This document shows positions 2,722-50,609 of a stretch of 64,000 nt of DNA, in pieces. Each line of letters starts with the position of its first letter. The first letter of the stretch is position 1. The notes under the pieces are model-generated. The model had not been told where the DNA came from and did not search any database. It saw only the letters and a list, made by a program, of their open reading frames with translations. Made by a program: the position numbers and the translations under genes. Origin of the DNA: Lophium mytilinum (lineage: Eukaryota; Ascomycota; Dothideomycetes; Mytilinidiales; Mytilinidiaceae); contig MU004185.1 of assembly GCA_010093605.1 (NCBI GenBank), forward strand, positions 1,926,539 to 1,990,538, in the 5' to 3' direction.

Positions 2722-4395
2722 ATGTTGGGCTTCCACAGACGCACGCGGTCGTTGATTCCGGTGAAGGATTTGGGAAAGTATGACAAGGTGGAGCTGAATG
2801 AGGAGGATTACGATACCGAGGAGGAGGAGATGGAGGAGTACGACGTCACCATCGAGGCGGTGCCTGCGAAGAGGAAGCAGAGGCAATTGACGTTGATATA
2901 TGTCATCTTCTTGGCCGAGGCGTGAGTATACCAATTCCTCCAATGAACATAGTATGGACGAATGCTAATGACGATGTGGTATAGTATCATGGCCTCAAGC
3001 CTTCAACCTCAACTCAAGATGCTTATCTCCAATGAGGACTTCTGCGGCAACCTCTCCACCTCCTACCTTCGAAGCATCCTCGACTGCGCCTATGCCTTCG
3101 GTGGCACCGCTGGAATCTTCTGGGGATACCTGGCCGACCGTATTGGACGAAGGCCGGTGGCATTGATGGGACTATTCGCCATGAGCTTCTGCTGTCTCGG
3201 CATAGGCTTTGCTACGGACGTCGTCAGCTGCACGATCTTCCGCTTCGTCGCTGGATTGTCCAGCTCGACTATCGTGGTCACAACGTTGACGATGATTGGT
3301 GACATTAGTGTCGGACATGCGGAGAGGGCTAGGAACGTGGCGAGGTTGCCATTGATTGCTCTTTGCGGATCAATTGGACCTATCATGCAGGGTATGGTCT
3401 CAGGAAGCATTGAAGCTTCCGGAGCTATCTGGCAGCAATTCCCGATTCTGAGTAGCCAGATTACCTGCGGGAGTCTGGTCTTCCTCATTGCTGTCACCAG
3501 CTGCATCATGTTGAACGAGGTAAGCTAGTTCTTACATTCATGCTCGAAGCAAGACTAATCCCATCAGACCCTCCCAATGCAACCAAGCAAGCCTCTCTCT
3601 ATCGACATCGACTCCGAAAAAGCCGCCTTCCTCAACCAAGACCTCCCCTCCATCCACATCGTCGATCTCGATACCCCCCGCCCTCTCCCAATCTCCATCT
3701 CTGCTTTCCTTCGCGCGCCTTCCCTCTTGGTTCTCCTCTGCTCTTTCTCACTCCTCTCCCTCCATGCCTCGGTCTTCGACACCCTCCTCCCACATCTCGG
3801 CCACAGCAGCACTTCACACGGCGGTCTTGGGATCCCATGCTCATGGCTTGGACTTACAGTCCTACTTGTGCGTGGTATTGCCGGGCTTTGCATTCTCCGC
3901 ACCATCCCCGCGGCTGTTGAGAAGATGGGGCTGTTATCGCCCTACCGCGCACTCAGCATGCTCTTCCCAGCGGTGTACATAGTCACGCCGTTGTTGGCGG
4001 TCATTGTCGCCTTCTCGCCATCCCTCACCGCGATCGTTTCTACTGCTGCTATCCTCATCAAACACGCTCTCTCCGGTTCCGCCACTGTCCTCGTAGCACT
4101 ACTCATTCTCAACACAACGCCTGACTCCTTCTCAACTGGAACCGTCGTCGGGCTTATGCAAGTTGCCAATCTCTTCAAGGCACTCGCTGTGGCAGTCAGC
4201 GGGGCCAGCTTCTATCTCAGCAGTGACTACAGCGTCGCCACGACAAATTACGCGCTATGGGCCGTCTTGATCGCGTTCGGAGCTGTCGGCGCGGCGCTCG
4301 CTTGGTTCGTGAGGGAACGTCCGAGTGTTGAGAGAGATTTCCCGGCTGAGGTGCTCTGCTGGGAGACATGCTTTGACGCGGACGGAGAGCTATGA
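2722..4395 (+). CDS. Major facilitator superfamily transporter
   Basis: Three exons, 2722-2921, 2985-3519 and 3568-4395, give a 520-residue protein. Introns have GTGAGT/TAG and GTAAGC/CAG ends and keep phase. The ATG at 2722 precedes an acidic cytoplasmic N-tail (DTEEEEMEEYD) and the first membrane helix, LTLIYVIFLAEA. The MFS motif A between helices 2 and 3 is clear: GYLADRIGRRPVALMG. A central loop (about residues 246-290) separates two hydrophobic halves, and the C-terminal half ends with helices up to WAVLIAFGAVGAALAWFVRE. This two-halves layout is typical for MFS proton-driven carriers. The general look recalls the yeast Ycr023c / zinc-induced-facilitator-like group, but the substrate cannot be read from the sequence. 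It probably sits in the plasma or vacuolar membrane. Confidence 0.85.
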
Positions 4396-9640: not shown

Positions 9641-9996
9641 GAACACCACCTTTACAAGCGGGAGACAGTCAGATGCTATCTGGATGAAATGGTTCATCTC
9701 TTTGTGCAGATACTGCTGATTAGCGAGATCGAACGACGTGAAAGAAATAGAGATGGGGATGGTGGACATCATCATTGATTTGGAGGTAGTAAGGAAGCCA
9801 GCGGGGCCAACTCTCTCCTCTCGATCGAACTTCGCCCAGTCCAGGATTGTTCATCCCACGCTCCCACATGCTCTGGGCAAAACAGTGTATTGACACGCCG
9901 CTACCGCCGCCACTGGACATCAAGCCACTCTTCCGAGGATTTTGATATCCAGTGCGGAAACCTTTGCAGAACAACTTTCTGAGCTCGAGAAAGAAG

Positions 9997-10048
9997 ATTT
10001 ATACTCTACCCCTACCGGAGACACGTGAGATATCACATGTCACACGTG
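9997..10048 (-). promoter_or_regulatory. E-box/TATA promoter-like unit P4
   Basis: Minus strand: CACGTG at 10048-10043 and again at 10027-10022, exactly 18 nt, then TATAAAT (10003-9997), a TCTTCTTTCTCG stretch, and GATATCAAAATC about 50 nt downstream. This mirrors P2 closely. It converges with P3 across 650 bp. Confidence 0.55.
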
Positions 10049-11121
10049 ACTGGGACGGCGTGACGTCTGAGGTATGAACGGAAAGATTCGACAGCGGGAT
10101 GACGCCGTATGAAGTCCTCTGAACCATCGCAGAGGGACTACGCGGGATGTACATTTCGTAACGTCGTGAACTAGGCCGATATCTGAGCTGTCGTTATCAG
10201 ACCGCTTCGTGCTAACTGAGTTCTTTCAAGGCAAGCAATGAAAGTGATATTTTGATGTGAGTTCTACTTGACCGTGGATTGGAATAGCATTTGAGCTGCC
10301 TTTTTAGATGTTTGACACTCTCTAATCGCCTCCAAGGCAGTATAAAAGTCGAACAGTCAATCAAAAGTTCACCAGGTCGCTATTCAGACAGTAGCATAGA
10401 TTCAACTATAAAGAGGCTGAGAGCCTCCAAAGCGTGTGATTGTATAGTCCTGAAGGCTACGGAGCGGGGAATGCTTTGCAACTGAAGGAGTTGGCTGTTA
10501 AAAGTTGAGCTGAAGGGGTCGCGCATACTTTACGAGGGCGGCGAGCGAAATTTGGAAGGAAAAAGGCATTGGATCTCGAGGCCAAACAGAGCGCTAGCAT
10601 CATCTCGTTCATATCATCATTTGTTGTGAAGGGGCAGAAAGCAAGAATCGATTGACGTTAGGGGTGGGGATGCTGACTAAACAGTATACTCCGCCCGGCG
10701 GCTCTAGCAACCTCATCTGGATCGCATCCTTCAAAGTCCAACCTCTGTCGTTTGCAATGACTATTTCTGCCTCTCCAAATTTATGCTAAGTATGTCTCTA
10801 CGTATATCCGAAGTTCTCAAATGTTGAACGCATTTGACATCCTTCTAGATAAGCAGATTTGGTAGAATACCTGCAACTGCCACGAACCCTCTCGCGTCGA
10901 CCATGGAGTGTACTCATCTCCTTTCCGCACGTTTGTGTACCTATGCTCAATAAAGAGTCGATACAATGACAAAGACCAGCAGGTCGGTCCTAGACTATAG
11001 TAGAGAGTATAAAGCCCATTGAGGCGGCGAAATGTCTTAGGACGTGGACGCAGATGGCCGGCAATAATTCAACGCGTCACATGGCGATTTAGGACGGTTT
11101 TCGCTCTGGCAGGAAACAAAT
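10049..11121. other. Intergenic region, no gene seen
   Basis: No supported coding region. A TATAAAA-like site near 10340 followed by ATCAAAAG could be a further decayed promoter unit but lacks a CACGTG at the right distance. Confidence 0.4.
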
Positions 11122-11401
11122 ATGCCCTAAGGCACATGCGTTCGCCGCTGGCTGCATCTTTGTTTGCTTTCAAAAGTGGCAAATTCCACTATAATGCGAT
11201 GGTGTGTTATGGTATGGATAGTCGTGCATTCGGGGCTCCTGCATAGATGAAGCTCTCGAGAATCCTCTTCAATATCACGCACAAGGCGTGAGTATCAATG
11301 AGAACTTTAAGTCCCGGGCCGAAGCCCTCGCCGCCAGGAACTCTGGCGACTACGCGTCCCACTTTCGTGGGCCCGATACCCTTTCAAGTGCCTTCCGGCA
11401 C
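11122..11401 (-). repeat. Hairpin array 3' of the minus-strand coiled-coil gene
   Basis: At least seven short inverted repeats, overlapping and following the 3' end of the minus-strand gene: 11388-11401 (GTGCC/GGCAC), 11358-11371 (CCCAC/GTGGG), 11332-11348 (CGCCAG/CTGGCG), 11316-11327 (GGGC/GCCC), 11275-11291 (TCACGC/GCGTGA), 11175-11190 (AGTGG/CCACT) and 11123-11134 (TGCC/GGCA). Read as RNA of the minus-strand gene, the loops include GGAA and GAAA (GNRA type) and a classical C(UUCG)G loop. The stems have unrelated sequences. A matching array lies beyond the other gene of the divergent pair at 14152-14635. Confidence 0.6.
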
Positions 11402-12562
11402 GAACTCGGTTTGAACGCCGGCTATAGTTATGTCGGCGACCATCTGAAGTATGGTGACTTCCAGTGTGCGGACCCTTTGGTTGACTTCTGCTACACGAGC
11501 CCTATCCTCCAGGAGTAGATTGTGGAGTCCAATGTTCGCGGTCTCGAGTCGATTGATGGTATTACCGTCGGCAATGGTAACATTTTGCAGGTCATCTGCT
11601 CTCCTCTTCTGCTCGTTGTACATCTGCTTCAATCTGTCGATTTCTGCATCCTTTTCTGCCTCCTTCTCAGTCAAAGTGGCGGTTCGCCGTCTGGATACCT
11701 GTGTCATGTGGTCTATCTGCCTCTTCAGCTGACGGTTCGTTGACATGTGGACCCTTCGCTGCTTCCTGAGCCGATTGTTCAAGAGCTCTACCGCGGTGAC
11801 GGCTCGGGTCCGGCGCTGCCGGTTAGCACTCTGTTCTCGACCTAGCTCTTTTTCAGAGCTGATCTGGAGACTCTCCAGCGCACTGGTGAGTCCAGCGCAC
11901 CTCCTTACTGCATCATCTTCTACCGACTTGACGAGAGTCTTGATGAGTAGTAACGTGTCAGCAAACTTTCGACGTTTGCGTTCCAGTGCAGTATTTGCAG
12001 CTGTCAGAGCAAGGTGGATGCGACTGATGTCAGTGCTAGCATCAACAACCTCGCTGCTATGAGTGGAGGCGCTATCGTCTGCATCCGCATTCAAGGAATT
12101 CGACAAAAACACGCCAGCGCCCGTTTCCGCGTTCACGGAATTCGGCGAAGGATCTGCCACTTGGGATTGCTCCCGGTCGGCATATGCAAGCAAGGGCCAT
12201 ACAGCCCCTACGCTTGACTTGAAGGAAGCGAGCGAAGACTTGATGTCCTCTAGACTCGTGAGCAATGGGTCGAAACCCGTAATGCTCGATTGGAGAGCTT
12301 CAAGAGCGGACTGAGGACGCCCGCTGCTTGAGTGCAAAGATGCGAAATTCTCACCGTCTACAATACCTTCGCTCTGGAGAACGCGGGTCTCTTGGGTCGC
12401 CTTAGCAAGGCGTTCCCTGAGAGCGTCCAAATTGGTATTTATGAAAGGTGGGAGAACCCCTAGCCGACGAGTGCACTCGTCCTTCAGCTCCTGTTGCCAG
12501 AGGGTAATTGCCTCTTCGACTTTCTCTTCGCTGGCCGAAAGCCGCACGAGTGGTGGCGTCAT
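11384..12562 (-). CDS. Coiled-coil protein of unknown function
   Basis: An intronless frame of 392 codons from ATG 12562 to TGA 11384-11386. The N-terminal ~200 residues are mixed helical and Ser/Ala-rich (SLHSSSGRPQSALEALQSS). From about residue 200 to the end, long charged heptad-like helices dominate, e.g. SNRQLKRQIDHMTQVSRRR and EKEAEKDAEIDRLKQMYNEQ, typical of a parallel coiled coil. No catalytic or targeting motif is seen. It is head-to-head with another coiled-coil gene (start 12850) across 287 bp, suggesting a shared promoter. The last codons (VPEGT) overlap the first hairpin of the 3' array. Lineage-specific protein; function not inferable. Confidence 0.7.
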   Translation of the reverse strand: MTPPLVRLSASEEKVEEAITLWQQELKDECTRRLGVLPPFINTNLDALRERLAKATQETRVLQSEGIVDGENFASLHSSSGRPQSALEALQSSITGFDPLLTSLEDIKSSLASFKSSVGAVWPLLAYADREQSQVADPSPNSVNAETGAGVFLSNSLNADADDSASTHSSEVVDASTDISRIHLALTAANTALERKRRKFADTLLLIKTLVKSVEDDAVRRCAGLTSALESLQISSEKELGREQSANRQRRTRAVTAVELLNNRLRKQRRVHMSTNRQLKRQIDHMTQVSRRRTATLTEKEAEKDAEIDRLKQMYNEQKRRADDLQNVTIADGNTINRLETANIGLHNLLLEDRARVAEVNQRVRTLEVTILQMVADITIAGVQTEFVPEGT

Positions 12563-12849
12563 CCTGGATGCGCAAAGACAACGACGAGGTGCGTAACTGT
12601 AAGTACTGACTCTGCTATGGTCTTTGTGGGAATGTGTGGTGGTAGAGGGAGAAGTTGGGTAGGACGTTGGGGCTCGTCTGAACGCGTCGCGCCTTTCGCT
12701 GACTAACCCGTCGTTTTGAATCTTCTTTCGACGTCACAGCGCTCCTTCAAACATTTCTCTACGCATCTCTTCATCCAATTCATACCATCACGTATTTCGC
12801 TTTGGCATCGAAAACGCGCAGATACCTATCGTCTATAGGGCACACGATA
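12563..12849. promoter_or_regulatory. Bidirectional promoter of the coiled-coil pair
   Basis: The 287-bp gap separates two outward-facing start codons. No TATA box stands out; the right half is C/T-rich (TTTCTCTACGCATCTCTTC near 12750-12770), a common feature upstream of fungal starts. Role inferred from gene orientation only. Confidence 0.4.
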
Positions 12850-14073
12850 ATGCGTAGGATGATGGGATCCTCCGACGGCAACGGGTTGCTGCCTGAACAG
12901 CAACCAACCTTTCGGTCGGGCCTCGCATCGAGCTCGAGCTTCATTGCTCCTGGCACGGCGCTTCGTTCGGACGAGCCGAGCTTCACGGACGTTATGGCGA
13001 CTTTCAATGTCGAGGTGACCCGCCATCGAAAGCAGGCCCACGACAAACTGGATGGCTTCCTGGCTGAGACCGCCGGGAAATACGTGCCACTTGAGCAGCA
13101 TGCCGCTTTGCAAAGGCGAGTTGCGCACTTGGAAACCGAGAATGCTTCCTTGGAGACCAAGGTCAAGAAGCTTCAAGACAATTCTCCCGACAAACTTTCG
13201 GTAGAGGCCAAATTTGAGAAGTTCGAGGAAATCCTCGAGGAGGTTCTCACGAAGTTTCTTGCGGAGAAGACATCGATTGATACTAGGGTCAAGAAGCTTG
13301 AGGGCCGTTTCGAAACGTCGAATACTACAATCGAAGAGCTGCAATCCGAAATCCATGGCCATGATGAGTCTGGCGATCACATCGACGGGATCAAGGAGCG
13401 ACTTCGGCAAGCTTCGCGTTGGATCAAGCGATTCGACCGTGACACGGAGGTTCTCCGGGGCGCCGACGATACTTTCGTTCACATCAGTGACTCGTTGGGT
13501 AAGATCGATGGAGTCCGGACCGACCTTGACCGACTGAAAACTTCGGTCAACGGCTTAGACACCAGATTCTCTGACCTGGAACGGCGAGAACGCAAGCGCG
13601 CAGCTCCTGGTGGCAAAAACGCCGAGGAATCTGAGGGGCCACCAACTCCAAAGCGGCCCCGGCTTGAATTTCCTGTGCGTCTGCGGACCACGGACACCGA
13701 ACTCAAGCCATTCTCTGCCCTTGAGGAGCAAGACCCTGCAACTGCCGAACGCTTGGTTGCCGCGATGGCTGCCCTCGTGACGAGAGACAAGGTCTTCCGA
13801 GGATCTCGCAGCGCCCACACCGATTGGTGCGTCCGCAGTCACGGCAGCGGGAGAGGTCCCGTCTGGGTCGACGATGAGCTGGATGATGAGGGCGACCCTA
13901 TGAGATCCTGCAGTGTGTGCGCAAAGAAGGGCTTGCCGTGCTTGATGATCCGTCCAACGGAGTCGGGCGAGGTAGAGCTCGTCTTGCTTCCATGGAAGCG
14001 ACACGCCACCGAGGGCGAGTGGACCAAGCACAGCTACTGGCTGTCTCCTGGGAAGCCTGTACTCACTGTGTAG
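12850..14073 (+). CDS. Coiled-coil protein with C-terminal Cys motif
   Basis: An intronless 407-residue frame from ATG 12850 to TAG 14071-14073. The same frame is open slightly upstream but has no other ATG. Residues ~50-260 form charged helices with coiled-coil character (RRVAHLETENASLETKVKKL and repeated KKLEGRFE / KKLQDN blocks). A basic stretch, RKRAAPGGKNAEES...PKRPRLEF, could act as a nuclear localisation signal. The C-terminus is compact and cysteine-bearing: HTDWCVRSHG, then RSCSVCAKKGLPCLMI, ending HSYWLSPGKPVLTV. The C-x2-C-x5-C spacing could bind a metal but no known finger fits. Divergent from the gene at 11384-12562 and followed by a long hairpin array. Function unknown. Confidence 0.75.
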   Translation: MRRMMGSSDGNGLLPEQQPTFRSGLASSSSFIAPGTALRSDEPSFTDVMATFNVEVTRHRKQAHDKLDGFLAETAGKYVPLEQHAALQRRVAHLETENASLETKVKKLQDNSPDKLSVEAKFEKFEEILEEVLTKFLAEKTSIDTRVKKLEGRFETSNTTIEELQSEIHGHDESGDHIDGIKERLRQASRWIKRFDRDTEVLRGADDTFVHISDSLGKIDGVRTDLDRLKTSVNGLDTRFSDLERRERKRAAPGGKNAEESEGPPTPKRPRLEFPVRLRTTDTELKPFSALEEQDPATAERLVAAMAALVTRDKVFRGSRSAHTDWCVRSHGSGRGPVWVDDELDDEGDPMRSCSVCAKKGLPCLMIRPTESGEVELVLLPWKRHATEGEWTKHSYWLSPGKPVLTV

Positions 14074-14151
14074 CCCAATCCCTTCGTCGCTCTATTCGTC
14101 TATACTGTCGAGACATGCGCCAGCACCTCCCCCTCCTTCCCATCTTCCATT

Positions 14152-14635
14152 GCACCGCAAGGTGCTTTGGCTTTGTACCGCGCCGAATGGCGCTTTAGCT
14201 TTCATGTCTGTTTACGTCCGCCTTTCGGCGGATTAGCCTTCTATTGCGCTTCGCGGCGCATTGGCCTCCTATTGTGCTTTGTGGCACATTGGCTTTCTAT
14301 TGCGCTTTGTGGCGCATTGGCCTCCTATTGTGCTTTGTGGCACATTGGCCTCTTATTGTGCTTTGTGGCACATTGGCTTTCTATTGCGCTTTGTGGCGCA
14401 TTGGCCTCCTATTGTGCTTTGTGGCACATTGGCCTCTTATTATGCTTTGTGGCACATTGGCCTTCTATTGCGCTTTGTGGCGCATTGGCCCTCTATTGCG
14501 TCGAAAGATGCTTTAGCTTTCATTTCTTTTTCGTCGGCCACAATCGTGGCCGTTCATTGCACCGCAAGGTGCTTTGGCGTTTGATTTTTCACCCCGTCGG
14601 CATACGTGCCGGCGTTTGCGCATCTTCGATGTGCA
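14152..14635 (+). repeat. Array of 17 hairpins, partly a 28-bp minisatellite
   Basis: Seventeen small inverted repeats begin 79 bp after the stop of the coiled-coil gene. In the centre (14245-14484) they form a 28-bp tandem repeat: 16 nt of hairpin (TGYGC-TTTGTG-GCRCA) plus a 12-nt pyrimidine-rich linker. In this core the third base pair is either T-A or C-G, changed on both sides together; one unit (14441) has a single mismatch. The outer stems differ in sequence: 14152 and 14559 (GCACC/GGTGC), 14180 (GCGCC/GGCGC), 14217 (TCCGCC/GGCGGA), 14498 (GCGTC/GATGC), 14535 (CGGCCAC/GTGGCCG), 14595 (8 bp) and 14617 (8 bp). Loops include GCAA, GAAA and TACG. The unit length is not a multiple of three, arguing against a protein repeat. 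Confidence 0.8.
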
Positions 14636-15611
14636 GTAAAACTTCAGCGAATTGCTTGCACTTCTACGTAGTGCTGAGGACCATTAACCTGATACAGGCG
14701 AAGCCAAGACAAGCAAAAGACTCTCAACGAGATTCTCAGCAAAGAGACTCACTCCCGCGGGATGCTGAAGCTACACGAGCGATGCATTGGCCGGGATTAT
14801 CCCTAACACTACGTCCACTAGATACGATACTCCACGGAGTCTTTCTATGATGGCAGAGCAGGTATGTAGTAAAGTATTCACCGTCTCCTTCTGTCCCCCT
14901 TCCTTTTGCTAATACTCAAGGTCGCCAAATCATCACGGACTTCGAGAAGCCGATGCGGCACTGCCAGAGGGTAAGAGCTCATCAAATCGGTGAGACATGG
15001 CGTCAATGCTGTTAACGATCCAGAGCACAGAGGAGTTGTCACGTATGATTGTGCATTTGGCCTAGTCTAGGATTGTCTTTGCCGGAGATGGCGGCGATCC
15101 TCAGCGGCGAGCTCCAAGGTTTAGTACCGGGCGGCTGATATGCTAATACGAAGCCCGTTCGAGACCAAAAGCTGATACAACCGACACTAGTAATCCAATG
15201 CGATGTATATGTATCTTTATGTTACACTTATCTTCTAACATATAGGCCTGAGGCTTTCCTATGGTACGATAAGCAAAATGTATACGGATAGAAAGTGAAT
15301 GGTGCCGAAAAGATGGCTTCATCGCAAGGCTATGTTCTAATCTACAAGTCTCTGGATCCGTTCAGTACATCCACCTTTCTTTTGATAAGTGTAGGCTAGA
15401 CGTCCCCCAAATAGCTCACTACCCTCGCAGCCGTTAGTCGCGACGTGATGTGATATATGTGAAGTAGAAAATCATTCCAACGACGGATATCGCTAGACTA
15501 GAACCTTGTTCGGAAAATGTGGGACTTTACATCTGGAGCTTCTTGCTTTGAATAGGCATAAGGACCCGCATGGGTGCTAGCAACGCAAGCCGCAGTGGAC
15601 AGTGGATAGTT
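14636..15611. other. Intergenic region, no gene seen
   Basis: About 1 kb between the hairpin array and the 3' end of the secreted-protein gene. No open frame with family features, no obvious repeat. Confidence 0.45.
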
Positions 15612-17197
15612 TCATCGTCTGCCTGGTAGCCCCGGCGTACCAGGGGGATCGACTGGAGGAGGTTGTGCAGCTACGGCATCAATTTGGTATATTCCTTCTC
15701 CGCATCCTACCTTGACCGAGTTGACCTTGGTCATCACCTGGTCGTTTGTATTGAAGCACCCAAGGAAACTGCCAAATATTTGGTCGCAGCGCTGTTGACA
15801 TTTGTTCGTGTTCGGGTTCCATGCGATGTTGAACTTGTAGTTGATTTGGTCCGGATACTGATGCTGGCCCCAAGCGTCCTCCCATGTCATTTCGAATTTG
15901 CGCGGCACCTTTATGTCGAGACCAGTGCAAAATGACGTAACAATTCTACGTCTGGTTAGATGCCGAGTTATTCTAAGAAGACTAGCCTTGTGAAGCCTGT
16001 ATATACTAGTTTGTGTACAGATCATTGACAAGGCACTGGATTGGGAGATAACCTACCCATCGAAGAGTGTGGAGTTCATTTTGGCCGTATCGTCATTGCT
16101 ACACGTCACTTGGGGATCGAAGTTTCGCGCCTTGAAAGTGAACTTTTTGTCGCTCCAACATGGGCAGTCTTTCCACAATTCGTCGGCAAAACCGACGCAT
16201 CGCTGCAAAGCTGTTTCACCTCCGCAGTTTTTGCAGTATGGCACTCGGTCTGGGAGATGGCATTTGGCGGAGCTGGATTGTGCCGCGGGTGCGGCGTGTG
16301 CCAAAGAACTCGGGATAACGTACGGTGCTGTGCCAGTAGGTGACTCGTTTAACACAAGAATGGTATAGCAAAGCCAATATAGCACTCTCATAGCGTTGTC
16401 TAGAATCTCGGCCTTAAGGACGTTGTGAGTAACCAGGAAACCCGCAAATTGGACGAGACGATGGAGCATGTCGCGCCCGTCTTGGAAAGGCGGATCTGGA
16501 ATTCCACGTTGATCGATTTCGTCCGGTAGTCCTTGTAGTCGGCCGGCATCCAGGCCGTTGATGACTGCCTCTGCTAAAGATGGAAGGCACTCTTCAAGCC
16601 ACCTAAAGGCATGTGTTAGCAGATGTACGCAAAAGGGAATGCTTCCTCGGACGGGGCTACAGCATCTGCCTGTGTACACTTGCTTGCTGCTGTTTGAAGT
16701 CCTGCTACGTTTTCAATATGGTCAAAGGAGCTTACTCTGACTTTTGAGACAGTGTCGAGAGACTTCAGACAGCAGCAGAACTAGGGCTGCACTTAAGAAC
16801 ACCGCAACCGAGGAGCTATGAGACCAGTACTTTACTTACCGTTTTCGACCTTTCGGACAGAATCCTAGAGATTGGAACAAAAAGTCAGACACCCTGTTGC
16901 CCACATCTTCCGAGAACGTGATGGTAATGTCTCCGGGATTGGGTCCGTCTGTGGGTACTCGTATGATCAATTTCCTGCTGCACTGTTAGATCATCTCTCT
17001 CGCGGTTTTCGTCACTACGTTGGGGCACCACACACCGTGGCAGCACGTTGTGCAAAGGTTTATGAGAAGTAGAGAAGAAGGAAGACTACTAACCCGTTAC
17101 TTCGCTGCAAAATCTGCCGTGGTGTTTCTGATAATGCATGGCCGGCGGCAAACTCGAGGGTTGAGCACAGAAGTGCAAGAAACAACGAGAAGCGCAT
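15612..17197 (-). CDS. Secreted cysteine-containing protein, unknown function
   Basis: Modelled with four exons on the minus strand: 17197-17101, 16948-16840, 16704-16057 and 15945-15612, total 395 residues. The ATG at 17197 starts a good signal peptide, MRFSLFLALLCSTLEFAAG. The middle exon has a helical stretch (WLEECLPSLAEAVINGLDAG) and then a cysteine cluster, CKNCGG...CVGF...CPCW. The last exon encodes SFCTGLDIKVPRKFEMTWED, followed by CQQRCDQIFGSFLGC and a short Pro/Gly tail. Intron ends fit GT-AG and preserve phase, but the first donor (GTAACG) is weak, so the first two junctions are provisional. Even without a family name, the signal peptide and paired cysteines point to an extracellular protein. 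It is divergent from the metalloprotease gene at 17984. Confidence 0.6.
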
Positions 17198-17983: not shown

Positions 17984-19868
17984 ATGAAGACCAGAATGCT
18001 AAGAGTCTGGATCTTTGTGATCCTTGCTTCCGTTTGGCTGCCCGGTGCCATCTGTGTTGGTTCCCCCGACCCTCTCACCTACTGGATCGACGCAAGCTGC
18101 GACTCAATAAATTACATCGTCAAGCCAGCTATCGAAGGGGCGCGTACCATGGCCAAGCGTGCAGCAGCCAGGCTGCCACCAGACTACAGCAACCCGTATA
18201 TGCACGAGGCTTTCGTGCGTGTTTTCCATTGGCTCAAAGTGACGAGGGCGAACGAGCAAGACCCAAACTCTCAGTTAGAGCCCACTCTAGAATATCTAAA
18301 GGTTTATCGTGAGTATATCCAGCTATAGTTCATTGGTTTCACGCTTACCTGGCACCGTCTGAGGTCCTCTGTTCTGTTCTTTCAAATTAGAAATGCGCGT
18401 TTTGACAAGCCTAATAGCTGTCGAGGATACCTCAGACGGTGTTAGACTACCTATAGGTACTGTACACTGCGCTGACGGCCTTTGGACACATAGGTGTACT
18501 AGATACGATTGGAAACTACATGACAGAGACAACAAATCGCAAGGCCTCCGAGGTTCGAATCTACTGTGACGATGATAGGGATGTTGATCAGGGCGGGCGA
18601 TGGTCTCCAATACCGGTCCAGAACGAAGACCCTGAGGACATCAAAAACAGCAACTTACCTGGAAGTATACACGATAAGGGTCTTCGGGAAGACTATCCCG
18701 AGGATGGACCGTGGCGAATGTGGGAAGATAAGACCAACTGGATAAGGAGGGAAGCAGGGACGCGAGGTTGTCAGCACAATCAACCACAGTTTTCTAATGA
18801 CAATAATAATGAGGGTATCAGCTACAGAAATAGATACATGTCCAAGGCCGATCATCCGGATTTTGACGAGGGGGAGAACGAGAACCGAGTGACTATCACG
18901 GTAAGTCAAAAGGGTTCGGTACATTTTCCTGATTTTCACGGATTTGTTTCAACCTAGCGTTGAAATCTACAGACTCAGCTAACGCGACGTAGCTATGTGA
19001 CCAACACATACGGGAGTTAGCACTAGCCAGCATTGACACATACCGTGACGAAGGCATGTTTCCACAAAACCAGCCTCATGGGCCGATGAACGAACCCGCT
19101 TGGGTGAAAAACGTCAAAATGTTGCAAGATCCGGTCTCTGTAACAGTTCTACACGAGGTATGTCAGCTAGCTACAGAACTAGGTCAGAAGTGATGGGCAC
19201 ATGAGTATGTCACTGCTGAAGCTCCAATCATGCCCGCTCAACAGCACTGCCAGGAGTGGCCCAGCCAGCAGGCAGGTGGCCAGCTCAGAGGTTGCCTGAA
19301 TCCCAATTTCAAGACCCAGACGTGTGATTAACGGGGCACCCCAAGCAGTGACAAACGAGCGTGCCCAGACCTTTTACCAACAGACTGATTTTCGGTCAGC
19401 TGATTATGCTACAGTTGACTCACATAACACGGCCCGACTTCAATCGTGAGGCTTTCATTTCGCAAATACGTTTTACTGAGCGCTAACATCTTTGAAGTGG
19501 AAGATGTAAGCTGGGTGCGGCTAATACCCGAAAATCCCGATGATTCGGATGGCGAAGGAACGAAGGACCTAGACGACCCTGCTAATTGGGCTGACCCTTA
19601 CGACTTCATACACATCTTGAGGAGATTCGGCCGGCCTGATTCCTATATCAATGCAGAGAGTGTGGCAATAATAGCTGCACTAGCACGAGCAGCGGACTTT
19701 GGATACAGGCTCGCAGATGTGAGCCAGATGAGTAACGGCGAACTCGTGTTTGACCCACATCTTGAAAAGATCGGTGGAGAGAATTATCAACGAAGAAAAC
19801 GTCGTGCAAATGACATTTCCAATACCACGGAGCGACTGGACTTGGTGGGGACGCCTTTCTCCGCTTAA
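17984..19868 (+). CDS. Secreted zincin-type metalloprotease
   Basis: Five exons, 17984-18308, 18494-18900, 18993-19157, 19415-19445 and 19498-19868, give 432 residues. The protein opens with a signal peptide, MKTRMLRVWIFVILASVWLP. It continues with YWIDASCDSINYIVKPAIEG and a conserved SEVRIYCDDD. The active-site helix is built across an intron: exon 3 ends VTVLHE and exon 4 starts LTH, making HELTH, the HExxH zinc motif. The last exon has INAESVAIIAALARAADFGY, similar to the segment that follows the zinc site in fungal aspzincin-like or Lys-specific metalloendopeptidase-like proteins. The third zinc ligand is not certain. The intron inside the motif is 257 nt, far longer than its neighbours, and carries a copy of a dispersed repeat (19216-19270). 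The tiny 31-nt exon 4 is required to keep frame. Extracellular peptidase is inferred. Confidence 0.7.
19216..19270 (+). repeat. Dispersed CACTGYCAGGAGTGG repeat, copy in an intron
   Basis: A copy of the short dispersed family also seen at 54502, 56513 and 56661. It shares the order CTGC..GCTCC.., a GC-rich middle, then CACTGCCAGGAGTGGCCC and GCCAG. It lies within the intron that splits the HExxH codons of the metalloprotease. Confidence 0.5.
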
Positions 19869-46808: not shown

Positions 46809-46985
46809 AATTTCAAGGAATGCAAGAATGGAAATGGTAGTTGGTTCAAGTAGAAGAGATGGAGAGTGGAGATAGAAGGGAAGACCATGCGCTGTATATT
46901 GCACGATGTGGCGCAGTCAAGACTTTGACAACCCTTGCTGCCTAACCTCTCCCTCCGCGGAGCACGAGATTTAATATATACCACT

Positions 46986-47680
46986 GATTTAAAGCCTCCG
47001 GAACATGACATGCACGGTTTTGTTAAGTTGAAAGGCGTAGGAGCGTCTCACAGTATTTTCGACATGTGCAAAGGTATATTTTAAGTACTCCGATTTCGAA
47101 CCTTTGTATTTTTCGCTCAGGGCACTGATTTGAAGTCTCCGGAACTTGACATTCATGGTTTCATCAAATTGAAAGGCGTAGGAGCGTCTCACAGTATTTT
47201 CGACGTGTGCAAAGGTATAGTATAAATACTCAGATTTAGGACCTATTATCATTCGCTCAAGGCGCTAATTTGAAGCCTCCGGAACTTGACATTCATGGTT
47301 TCATCAAGTTGAAAGGCGTGGGGGCGTCTTACGCTATTCATCTATAAGTAAGGGTCAACGCACTGATCTGAAGCCTCCGGAACTTGACATTCACGGTTTT
47401 ATTAAGTTGAAAGGCGCAGGAGCGTCTTACAGTATTATCGACGTGTGCAAAGACAACGCTTATGTACTCAGATTCAGAGCCTATGCATCAAACGCCCCAG
47501 ACTATCTTCCGACCGTTCAAGACACCGATCTGAAGCCTCCAGAACTTGACATTCACGGTTTCATCAAGTTGAAAGGCGTGGGGGCGTCTTACAGTATTAT
47601 CGACGTGTGCAAAGGCAAGGTTCAAGTAGTCAGATTCAGAACCTATGTACTATTCGCCCCCGGGTATCTCCGACCGTAAC
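46986..47680 (+). repeat. Five tandem ~140-bp repeats of a dispersed family
   Basis: Copies begin at about 46986, 47127, 47267, 47365 and 47527, each opening with AAGCCTCCGGAACTTGACAT (or near) and containing CAGTATTTTCGAC then TGCAAAG. Copy 3 is shortened; copies 4 and 5 are more like each other than like copies 1 and 2. On the minus strand copies 1 and 2 encode FAHVENTVRRSYAFQ, on the plus strand copies 4 and 5 encode ELDIHGFIKLKG; both frames being open means coding status is ambiguous. Related single copies lie at 30838-30877 and, inverted, at 54661-54775. Confidence 0.7.
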
Positions 47681-48523: not shown

Positions 48524-50609
48524 GGTGACCGAAAGAGAACGCCTGCGTCGAACTGTCGAAACGCCGAATACCGGATACAATCCAATCGATAGGAAGAGTG
48601 AGAGTGGCGGTCCAAGAGCAGCAGCACTATATGCGACTATCTCAGGCCTTGAAAGAAGCGTAGATGAGGAGAGATTCGTGAGACGGCGAATGCGCGCAGA
48701 GGATGTAGAAGAGAAGGCAACCAGCGCAGCGAGCGAAGAGAGTATACTGTGGGAATAGTAGAGGTCGTTCCGAGAGCAGAAGCACTGCGTGCGACTGATC
48801 TAGGCCATGAGGAAGTGTAGACGCAAAGAAATTCGTGAGAGGGCGATTGCGAGCGGAGGATGTAGAAGAGAAGGTCATCAGCGCAGCGAACGAAGTGAAA
48901 ATACTGTGGGAGAAAAAGCCGGTGGCAGGTCGAGTTCGAAAAAATCCAAAGCGCGGCGGCAACCCTGGTCCGTGCGATGAGGGCCACGAGCTCACCTCCC
49001 CGCGATGCCGGAGTCCCTGAAGCACCACCAATTCACCAAAAAACCCTCGACAAGACAGCATATATGCTACTGTCATGTGCTGGTGCAAGCTACTCCTTTT
49101 GCCATGTCAATTGGAGCTCTAGGAGGCGTGGAGCAGTACATCGTCGGCCACGCAGGATGATGGTGGTGAAATGGGAGAGCGCTTTGGGTCTAGCGCGGAT
49201 TTGGCGAGCCATAGCGCCGGGAGCGCCCGCCGTTGACAGCCTGGTAGCGACGCAGCCTTACAGCCTCGTCTCAGGAGCTAGGGATGTGGTAGGCATCTTT
49301 CGCCTGTTCCTGGTCATCGCGATTATGGAATAGGGGAGCTGGCGCCCGGGTGACGCGACAATACAGCGCGTGGGCTGCAGCTGGGAATCCAGAATGGCCA
49401 GCGCTTCTGCCACCACAACCAGCGGCGCGACGGCGATGTATTCCTAGGTGCCGCGAATCAGACAATTGTGTTCGACGGCCCGGTACGACGATGCTGGCAT
49501 ACTTTAGGGTCTTAGATGAGCTGTCCTGTATCTGAATGCTCCCCCTTTCCTATCTCTTAGAAGCATTATCTGCCACATGTGCGACCACAGGTAAGGAATC
49601 TTACTTGCGCACATTCCCACTGAGCACTCTTATCTTCCGTTCGAGATCACATGGGCTTGAGGAACGTGCGGTGCCCCTCTAGGATAAGAGCACTCCGTAA
49701 TCGGTGGGCTTGGAGGGGCTGCGACGTCACTGGCTCCCTACGACAGCAGGACCGATGTCCCAAAGACAAAGATGATGTTCTCAGGTGTACCAGTTCTTGA
49801 ACATGGTTAGGGCCAGGCGGGGATTCCCTCTCAGCAGGGTGGTAACTCCAGCGCTGAAGGGGCTTCAGTTCCCAAAACCATGGTCCCTTCATAAACCCGG
49901 CATCCCAGGAAAGATTCTTTACCGGCCGCCATGGCAGCCGCGACTCTATTAGACTCGATATACTGGATCGCAAGTGATGATGGACATCCACTTGTTGCTC
50001 CCTAGTGCTGTCTCTGGTGGGCGTTGATCCTTGGAACTCCGTGGTGAGAGAGAACCTACCCAAGAAAGAATGGCAAATGGACGAGCCTTCGAAGCCCCGC
50101 ATCTATAGAGAAGAACAGTGCTCCGCCTCCTTCGTCAATAGCTATTCTTCCTATTGTTCAATGAGTCGAACGGGACCGTTGCCGTTGCTATCCAGATCAC
50201 GTGAACACGAGCTGCGGCTCTTGCCCTCTTGTTTACGCTTTGCGGCGGCAAGCCCGCACAATTCTCGCACCTGTCCGGTACAAACTCGGCGGGGCTTTGC
50301 AGACGTTCACTTTCAAAGGCTGGTCGCTCAACCTCTTTTCTTCTCCTCTCCACCATCGTCAATTGCCACCTCGCCCGTGCCGCGTGAATCTGAGGCGCGA
50401 GGAAGCAACTAACGGAGTATACCAGGGCCTTCGAAGTCGAATTCACCGCCCTCCAACCTCAGTTGAAACCTAGCTCTCCTCGAATCTAACCTCATCCGAC
50501 TCTTTCGATTCGACTTCGTCTCGCCCTAGTCCGGCCGTCAGCGACCTTGTCACAACAAGACTTCATGTTACCTCGGCTCATCTAGAGTGATCATAGTCCA
50601 ACCTTACCG
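48524..50609. other. Intergenic region between divergent genes, with a tandem duplication
   Basis: 2.1 kb. It starts with a duplicated ~150-bp block (48608-48912). Long overlapping frames at 49647-50470 have no start context or family motif. The 100 bp before 50610 is T/C-rich, a typical leader. No gene called. Confidence 0.45.
48608..48912 (+). repeat. Direct duplication of a ~150-bp block
   Basis: Copy A (about 48608-48762) and copy B (about 48768-48912) share GAGCAG-AGCACT, GATTCGTGAGA or ATTCGTGAGA, AGAGGATGTAGAAGAGAAGG (in B: GGAGGATGTAGAAG...), CAGCGCAGCGA and ATACTGTGGGA. They are roughly 80 percent alike with few indels, so the duplication is old but not ancient. Confidence 0.65.

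Follow-up and report, generated by a model that had tools for sequence, protein, structure and literature searches.

A stem-loop array beside a predicted HDV-type ribozyme in Lophium mytilinum, a possible message end without a poly(A) tail

An array of 17 stem-loops in the genome of the dothideomycete fungus Lophium mytilinum lies between the stop codon of a reading frame and a predicted HDV-type ribozyme on the same strand, and may form the 3' end of a ribozyme-cut message without a poly(A) tail, a reading to which we assign a probability of roughly 0.47. The likely source of the array's role is this adjoining ribozyme, which is absent from the initial annotation of the region. The DNA analysed, here called the window, is a 64-kb stretch (C5:1926539-1990538) of the 43.18-Mb, 24-contig genome, and coordinates without a prefix are positions within it. 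Eight copies of the ribozyme-like element were found in the genome (a lower bound): the window copy, C18, C13, D1-D3 (contig C17), E (C19) and F (a second copy on C18). The features of the window, in the order in which they would be transcribed, are:

12850-14073, + strand: upstream reading frame, 407 aa when counted from its first ATG, with the stop codon at 14071-14073
14152-14635, + strand: array of 17 stem-loops, between the upstream stop codon and the ribozyme fold, ending six bases before 14642
about 14232-14500, + strand: tandem core of 28-bp units, part of the array
14616-14636, + strand: terminal hairpin of the array, 9 pairs including an outer T-G, from a fold of the 60 nt before the predicted cut
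14641/14642, + strand: predicted self-cleavage site, 5' of C14642, from likeness to fungal-variant HDV ribozymes, which are cut at the base of P1
14642-14716, + strand: predicted fungal-variant HDV-type ribozyme fold, from copy alignment, covariation and an HDV-type descriptor
14642-14648, + strand: P1 5' strand CUUCAGC, pairing with 14673-14679 (GCUGAGG), with C-G at the predicted cut
14652-14658, + strand: P2 5' strand UUGCUUG, pairing with 14710-14716 (CAAGCAA), 7 pairs
14659, + strand: extra C at the P2/P3 junction, a fungal-variant mark, C in all eight copies
14660-14672, + strand: P3 (ACU/AGU) with loop L3 UCUACGU, from copy alignment, covariation and the descriptor
14688-14698, + strand: P4 hairpin CCTG/CAGG (GCC-TTCG-GGC in the C17 copies), from copy alignment and covariation
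14704, + strand: J4/2 cytosine, at the site of the catalytic C of HDV-like ribozymes, C in all eight copies

The product of the upstream reading frame is coiled-coil-like by eye, with cysteines close to its C-terminus; its Pfam matches are all below cut-off. Among about 5.8 billion proteins, with scoring of the 7994 candidates that had the most words in common, only the protein itself (a 359-aa record) was matched, and the gene has a single match across the genome. The reading frames at 11384-12562 and 12802-14073 form a divergent, coiled-coil-like pair with about 240 bases between them, both below the Pfam cut-off.

All 17 stems that the initial annotation had placed in the array are present in the sequence, the first of them beginning 79 bases past the stop codon as described. 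Its pairing claim also holds, 16 of the 17 stems being perfect or wobble-paired and the one at 14441 (TATGC/GCACA) carrying one A-C mismatch, and the loops GCAA, GAAA and TACG are as reported. Its caveat on duplication was borne out: the core consists of 28-bp units within 84-bp duplications, so that the change between T-A and C-G in the core does not stand for independent events. When stems were defined by a length of at least 5, at least 3 G-C, at most 1 G-T and a loop of 3-8, 16 were counted in 14074-14641, compared with 4.3 ± 1.6 (maximum 8) in 500 dinucleotide shuffles. The flanks of the array without the tandem core contain 8 stems versus 2.0 ± 1.2, a number equalled by none of 1000 shuffles. 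Folding of 14074-14716 gave z -7.6 (+ strand) and z -5.6 (- strand), with none of 20 shuffles as good in either orientation. No second occurrence of the core word or of the whole array was found in the genome. A protein-coding reading of the array was rejected: its three + frames are all open, which necessarily follows from a stop-free 28-bp repeat, and it is of low complexity.

Exceptions to perfect pairing, counted as G-T versus A-C, favour the sense strand by 12:1 in the window, a ratio inflated by the tandem copies, and by 7:3 in C18, and are even (5:5) in C13. Sense folding beats antisense folding in nine of nine comparisons (three nested lengths at three loci, not independent of one another). 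Of the alternatives in the initial annotation, a structured 3' UTR or a separate small RNA, the former, in the sense of the upstream gene, is supported by this bias and by the HDV-type fold that follows the array on the same strand.

The element at 14642-14716 is predicted to fold as a nested double pseudoknot with the helix order P1-P2-P3-P1'-P4-P2', in which 7 of 7 pairs are present in both P1 and P2. A descriptor of the HDV-type fold matched once in both strands of the 64 kb, at this element, and gave no match when one strand of the window was letter-shuffled 20 times. It matched six of the eight copies (the window and five of the other seven), with no further match in 66.8 kb around the other copies. 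No Rfam family reaches its gathering score in the window; lax Rfam scans of the array, the element, the first C17 copy and the C19, C18 and C13 copies returned weak matches far below gathering scores, with no HDV model among them. Hammerhead and tRNA-like readings of the element were discarded (Rfam and ARAGORN were run on the window), the core letters or the helix order being unfit by eye, and so was a kissing dimer via the P3-loop palindrome UACGUA/UGCGCA, since the C17 copies have a non-palindromic loop.

Judged by sequence and modelled pairing, the element is filed as a new member of the known fungal-variant class of HDV ribozymes and is predicted to be self-cleaving. As described in PMC5640933, this class comprises 230 ribozymes in 26 species (about nine per species), marked by C-G at the cut, by a loop E that replaces some of P4 and, at P2/P3, by one additional nucleotide that is mostly C; two of these variants were shown there to cut, at the base of P1. 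The window element has in common with them the predicted nested double pseudoknot, the C-G at the cut and the extra C at P2/P3, and has a short P4 adjoining a stretch that may resemble loop E. The cytosine of J4/2, present at 14704, is essential in HDV-like ribozymes (PMC10879173). Across the eight copies the cleavage-site pair is C-G in six, including the window, and U-G in two (C13 and F). The letters before P4 are AGTA in five copies (C13, D1-D3 and E), ATTA in the window and C18 and ACTA in F; those after P4 are GAA in the window, C18, C13 and F, and AAA or CAA in the others. If the stretch at P4 is loop-E-like, it is so most plainly in C13, with changes in the window copy.

The C18 copy was found by a genome DNA search with 14074-14700, the match being limited to the 3' end of the query, and the C13 copy by a DNA search with that 3' end alone. 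A 23-base pattern added the three C17 copies (D1-D3), the C19 copy (E) and the weak second C18 copy (F), the last of which was kept despite 3 mismatches because a second DNA search matched 49 of its bases at 88%. One further match, G (C5:1536962, 3 mismatches), was attributed to chance and stands outside the eight, as the rest of the element is absent and the reversed-pattern control itself gave 3 + 1 matches. A tighter pattern with one mismatch allowed returned 10 matches, namely the eight copies and two sites without the element's letters. A looser one returned 19 versus 33 in the reversed control, with a paired P3, by eye, only in five known copies (C13, D1-D3 and E). As expected of a fungal element, the ribozyme pattern gave no exact match in viral contigs or in bacterial and archaeal genomes.

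P2 is paired in all eight copies (100% of cells) while its letters vary almost freely, with two-sided changes at five of its seven pairs, and reads UUGCUUG/CAAGCAA, GAGUUUG/CAAACUU, GAGUUCG/CGAACUC, GAGUCCG/CGGACUC or GAGCUUG/CAGGCUC. P1, a pseudoknot formed with bases 5' of P2, is full in six of the eight (CUUCAGC/GCUGAGG, CCCCAGC/GCUGGGG and CCUCAGC/GCUGGGG); in a fixed register C13 has 3 of 7 pairs, improved by eye with one bulge, and F has 2 of 7. Over the eight copies 83.9% of cells are paired in P1, 95.8% in P3 and 83.9% in P4, which together with P2 amounts to 91.0% of 167 cells versus 83.0% in shuffles (0 of 500 as high), and sliding the register by 1-3 columns lowers pairing to 32-42%. 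Two-sided changes occur in 16 cells versus 6.1 in shuffles (reached by 0 of 500), a cell count that overstates independent events because D1-D3 are near-identical, and at 7 pairs versus 4.5 (reached by 17 of 500). The covariation score, 0.317 versus 0.170, lies above all 500 shuffles, and the number of further pair types, 14 versus 14.2, shows no excess over shuffles.

Four of the eight copies (the window, C18, C13 and E) are located 3' of a reading frame. At the C18 locus, charged reading frames, the last ending at L011:4026, are followed by a 594-nt segment with diverged repeats and then by the ribozyme. At the C13 locus, a charged frame that contains a single in-frame stop and ends near 4119 in the reverse of L017 is followed by a segment of tandem units and then by a ribozyme-like element. 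The 5' UTR and N-terminus are common to these two loci (207 bases, 78%), and the window gene has no match to them. The order of reading frame, hairpin-rich segment and ribozyme-like element thus recurs at three loci with segments unrelated in sequence, a link that extends over three loci of one genome and includes C13 with its poor P1. In E the ribozyme begins about 70 nt past the stop codon, with no hairpins. Contig C17 carries its three near-identical ribozymes within 10.4 kb, not clearly 3' of a sense gene; D1-D3 have about 30 bases in common before P1 and about 100 after the ribozyme, with unrelated sequence further upstream, and D1 and D2 lie upstream of same-strand reading frames. The C17 and C19 copies without hairpins indicate that the ribozyme needs no array, and the array is best regarded as an addition at some genes and not a part of the ribozyme.

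The C17 region itself (L032 and L033, C17:490500-510300) holds a cluster of coiled-coil-like genes with a C-terminal cysteine motif of the CDGxxPCxxC type along with the three ribozymes. One protein of this cluster matched only itself among about 5.8 billion proteins. The roughly 30 conserved bases before each C17 ribozyme start with AGGTAAGT, a possible 5' splice site.

A reading that we consider very improbable follows the model of R2 retrotransposons: the ribozyme would mark where a downstream RNA begins, and the array would fall in the discarded part. HDV-like ribozymes do occur at the 5' ends of non-LTR elements, R2 among them (PMC3774820), and the common downstream bases of D1-D3 and the downstream frames of D1 and D2 are what such a reading would lead one to expect. 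However, the sequence shared by the window and C18 stops at the ribozyme's own end, with nothing in common beyond it, the longest of the open frames that come next in the window (15612-16031 and 16053-16679) are on the strand opposite to the array and ribozyme, and what C18 and C13 share in 5' UTR and N-terminus is upstream. The R2 and CPEB3 HDV-like ribozymes belong to the same fold class, but the former forms a retrotransposon 5' end (PMC3774820) and the latter lies in an intron, unlike the 3' flank of the window.

Folding next to the presumed cut separates the copies. For the 150 nt ending at or near it, z was -6.0 in the window, -5.2 in C18 and -7.1 in C13, and by the same measure -2.5 in D1, +1.7 in D2, +2.0 in D3, -0.5 in E and -2.0 in F. 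Among 852 background windows of 150 nt from both strands of the 64 kb the lowest value was -4.8, so that none reached -5; placement matters, as grid windows falling on the array itself gave only -3.0 to -3.8 on the sense strand. In 150-nt steps across all eight presumed cuts, the window, C18 and C13 copies have strong folding immediately ahead of the cut but not past it, bar a value of -3.1 at +300 in C13; in the window and C18 the values between 0 and +450 stay close to 0. A strongly folded segment is hence found in two of the other seven copies (C18 and C13) and in none of D2, D3 and E; F is weak before the cut (-1.9 and -2.0), and D1 is equivocal (-3.8 just before the cut and -3.1 at -600 in the 150-nt steps, versus -2.5 in the 150-nt-to-cut measure). 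A tail of 5 nt separates the terminal hairpin from the cut in the window (TAAAA) and in C18 (TTAAA, after a hairpin of 11 pairs), the last three bases of both tails being part of the shared element. In C13 the hairpin ends within about 2 nt of the cut; owing to the poor fixed-register P1, this locus, one of the three that support the link, may not cut, and its cut site is uncertain.

The same measurements bear on an account that we judge unlikely, namely that a real ribozyme is present only as a selfish or chance passenger, and that the array is an unrelated minisatellite in the 3' flank whose adjacency is meaningless. It would explain why a strongly folded segment accompanies only three of the eight copies, and the repeats themselves suit it: the window array is a tandem 28-bp/84-bp repeat, C13 has tandem units of 33, 47 and 80 bp, and tandem palindromes fold well even when functionless. 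The poor P1 of the C13 ribozyme points the same way. It accounts less readily for three unrelated sequences that are strongly folded in the 150 nt before the presumed cut, for the excess of stems in the non-tandem flanks of the window array (8 versus 2.0), or for terminal hairpins of 9 pairs in the window and 11 in C18, each outside the tandem core and ending 5 nt short of the cut. Weighing against the message-end reading, two diverged 173-column copies inside the C18 segment preserve their predicted pairs only at chance level (P 0.14 both ways).

Quite improbable, in our estimate, is that the array serves as a platform to which the protein of the upstream gene, or a different protein, binds, or as a small-RNA precursor, and that the ribozyme merely trims it. 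Many similar short stem-loops in series would suit multivalent binding, and the sense bias of the fold speaks for this account as well; yet DNA searches found no common unit among the hairpin segments of the window, C18 and C13, which argues against one binding protein, and the array stems, at 5-9 pairs, are short as Dicer substrates.

In the reading that we prefer, the ribozyme-cut message ending in hairpins, a single transcript would run from the gene through 14716 and be cut by the ribozyme 5' of C14642, so that the hairpin-bearing part would end in a 2',3'-cyclic phosphate. 3' exonucleases would be slowed by the terminal hairpin, at most 6 bases from the cut, and by the array behind it, and the hairpin end might replace the poly(A) tail in stability, export or translation. 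Against this model stand the five copies without clear structure (D1-D3, E and F), one of which, E, lies 3' of a hairpin-less gene. We put forward, tentatively and at less than even odds, the broader possibility that filamentous fungi have a natural class of poly(A)-less messages, cut by HDV-type ribozymes and armoured by fast-evolving hairpin arrays, as a protein-free counterpart of the histone stem-loop. Histone mRNA has a poly(A)-less 3' end, a hairpin followed by some 5 nt of tail, and there protein machinery forms the end at a single conserved hairpin. The end proposed here would likewise be a poly(A)-less hairpin end with a tail of about 5 nt, but made by a ribozyme and with many unrelated hairpins.

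Tailless mRNA with engineered hairpins at its end is protected and more highly expressed, with triple hairpins better than single ones (PMC9951143). That system resembles the present proposal in that end hairpins replace the poly(A) tail and several work better than one, and differs in being man-made and used in human cells. The hammerhead of mammalian Clec2 genes is also a self-cleaving RNA in a 3' UTR, but of another ribozyme class, and no hairpin array is seen in that account (PMC6155905). For fungal HDV ribozymes, PMC5640933 describes gene associations as widely variable and, in its part on the HDV variants, states no job for them; here, as a difference, three copies end a hairpin-rich 3' flank, and the words tandem and repeat are absent from the main text of that paper. 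Among the titles and abstracts listed, which do not extend to subscription journals and preprints, none reports an array of hairpins preceding an HDV-type ribozyme or located in a fungal 3' end. If the proposal is true, some fungal HDV-type ribozymes would gain a job, that of ending messages in an armoured hairpin; there would be a second natural route to a stable mRNA end without poly(A), and a natural part for the design of tailless mRNA.

Other structured or repeated stretches of the window were observed at a distance from the array. The most strongly folded grid window in the 64 kb is 9901-10050, with z-scores of -4.8 and -4.3 on the two strands and separate hairpins. On the + strand, 16651-16800 contains a long hairpin (CTGCTGTTTGAAGT.../ACTTCAGACAGCAG, z -4.5), and 18301-18450 a near-perfect inverted repeat of at least 13 pairs (CACCGTCTGAGGT...ACCTCAGACGGTG) that encloses a loop of some 70 nt (z -4.3). 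Units of 98, 141 and 157 bp are duplicated in tandem at 46982-47459 and 48611-48911.
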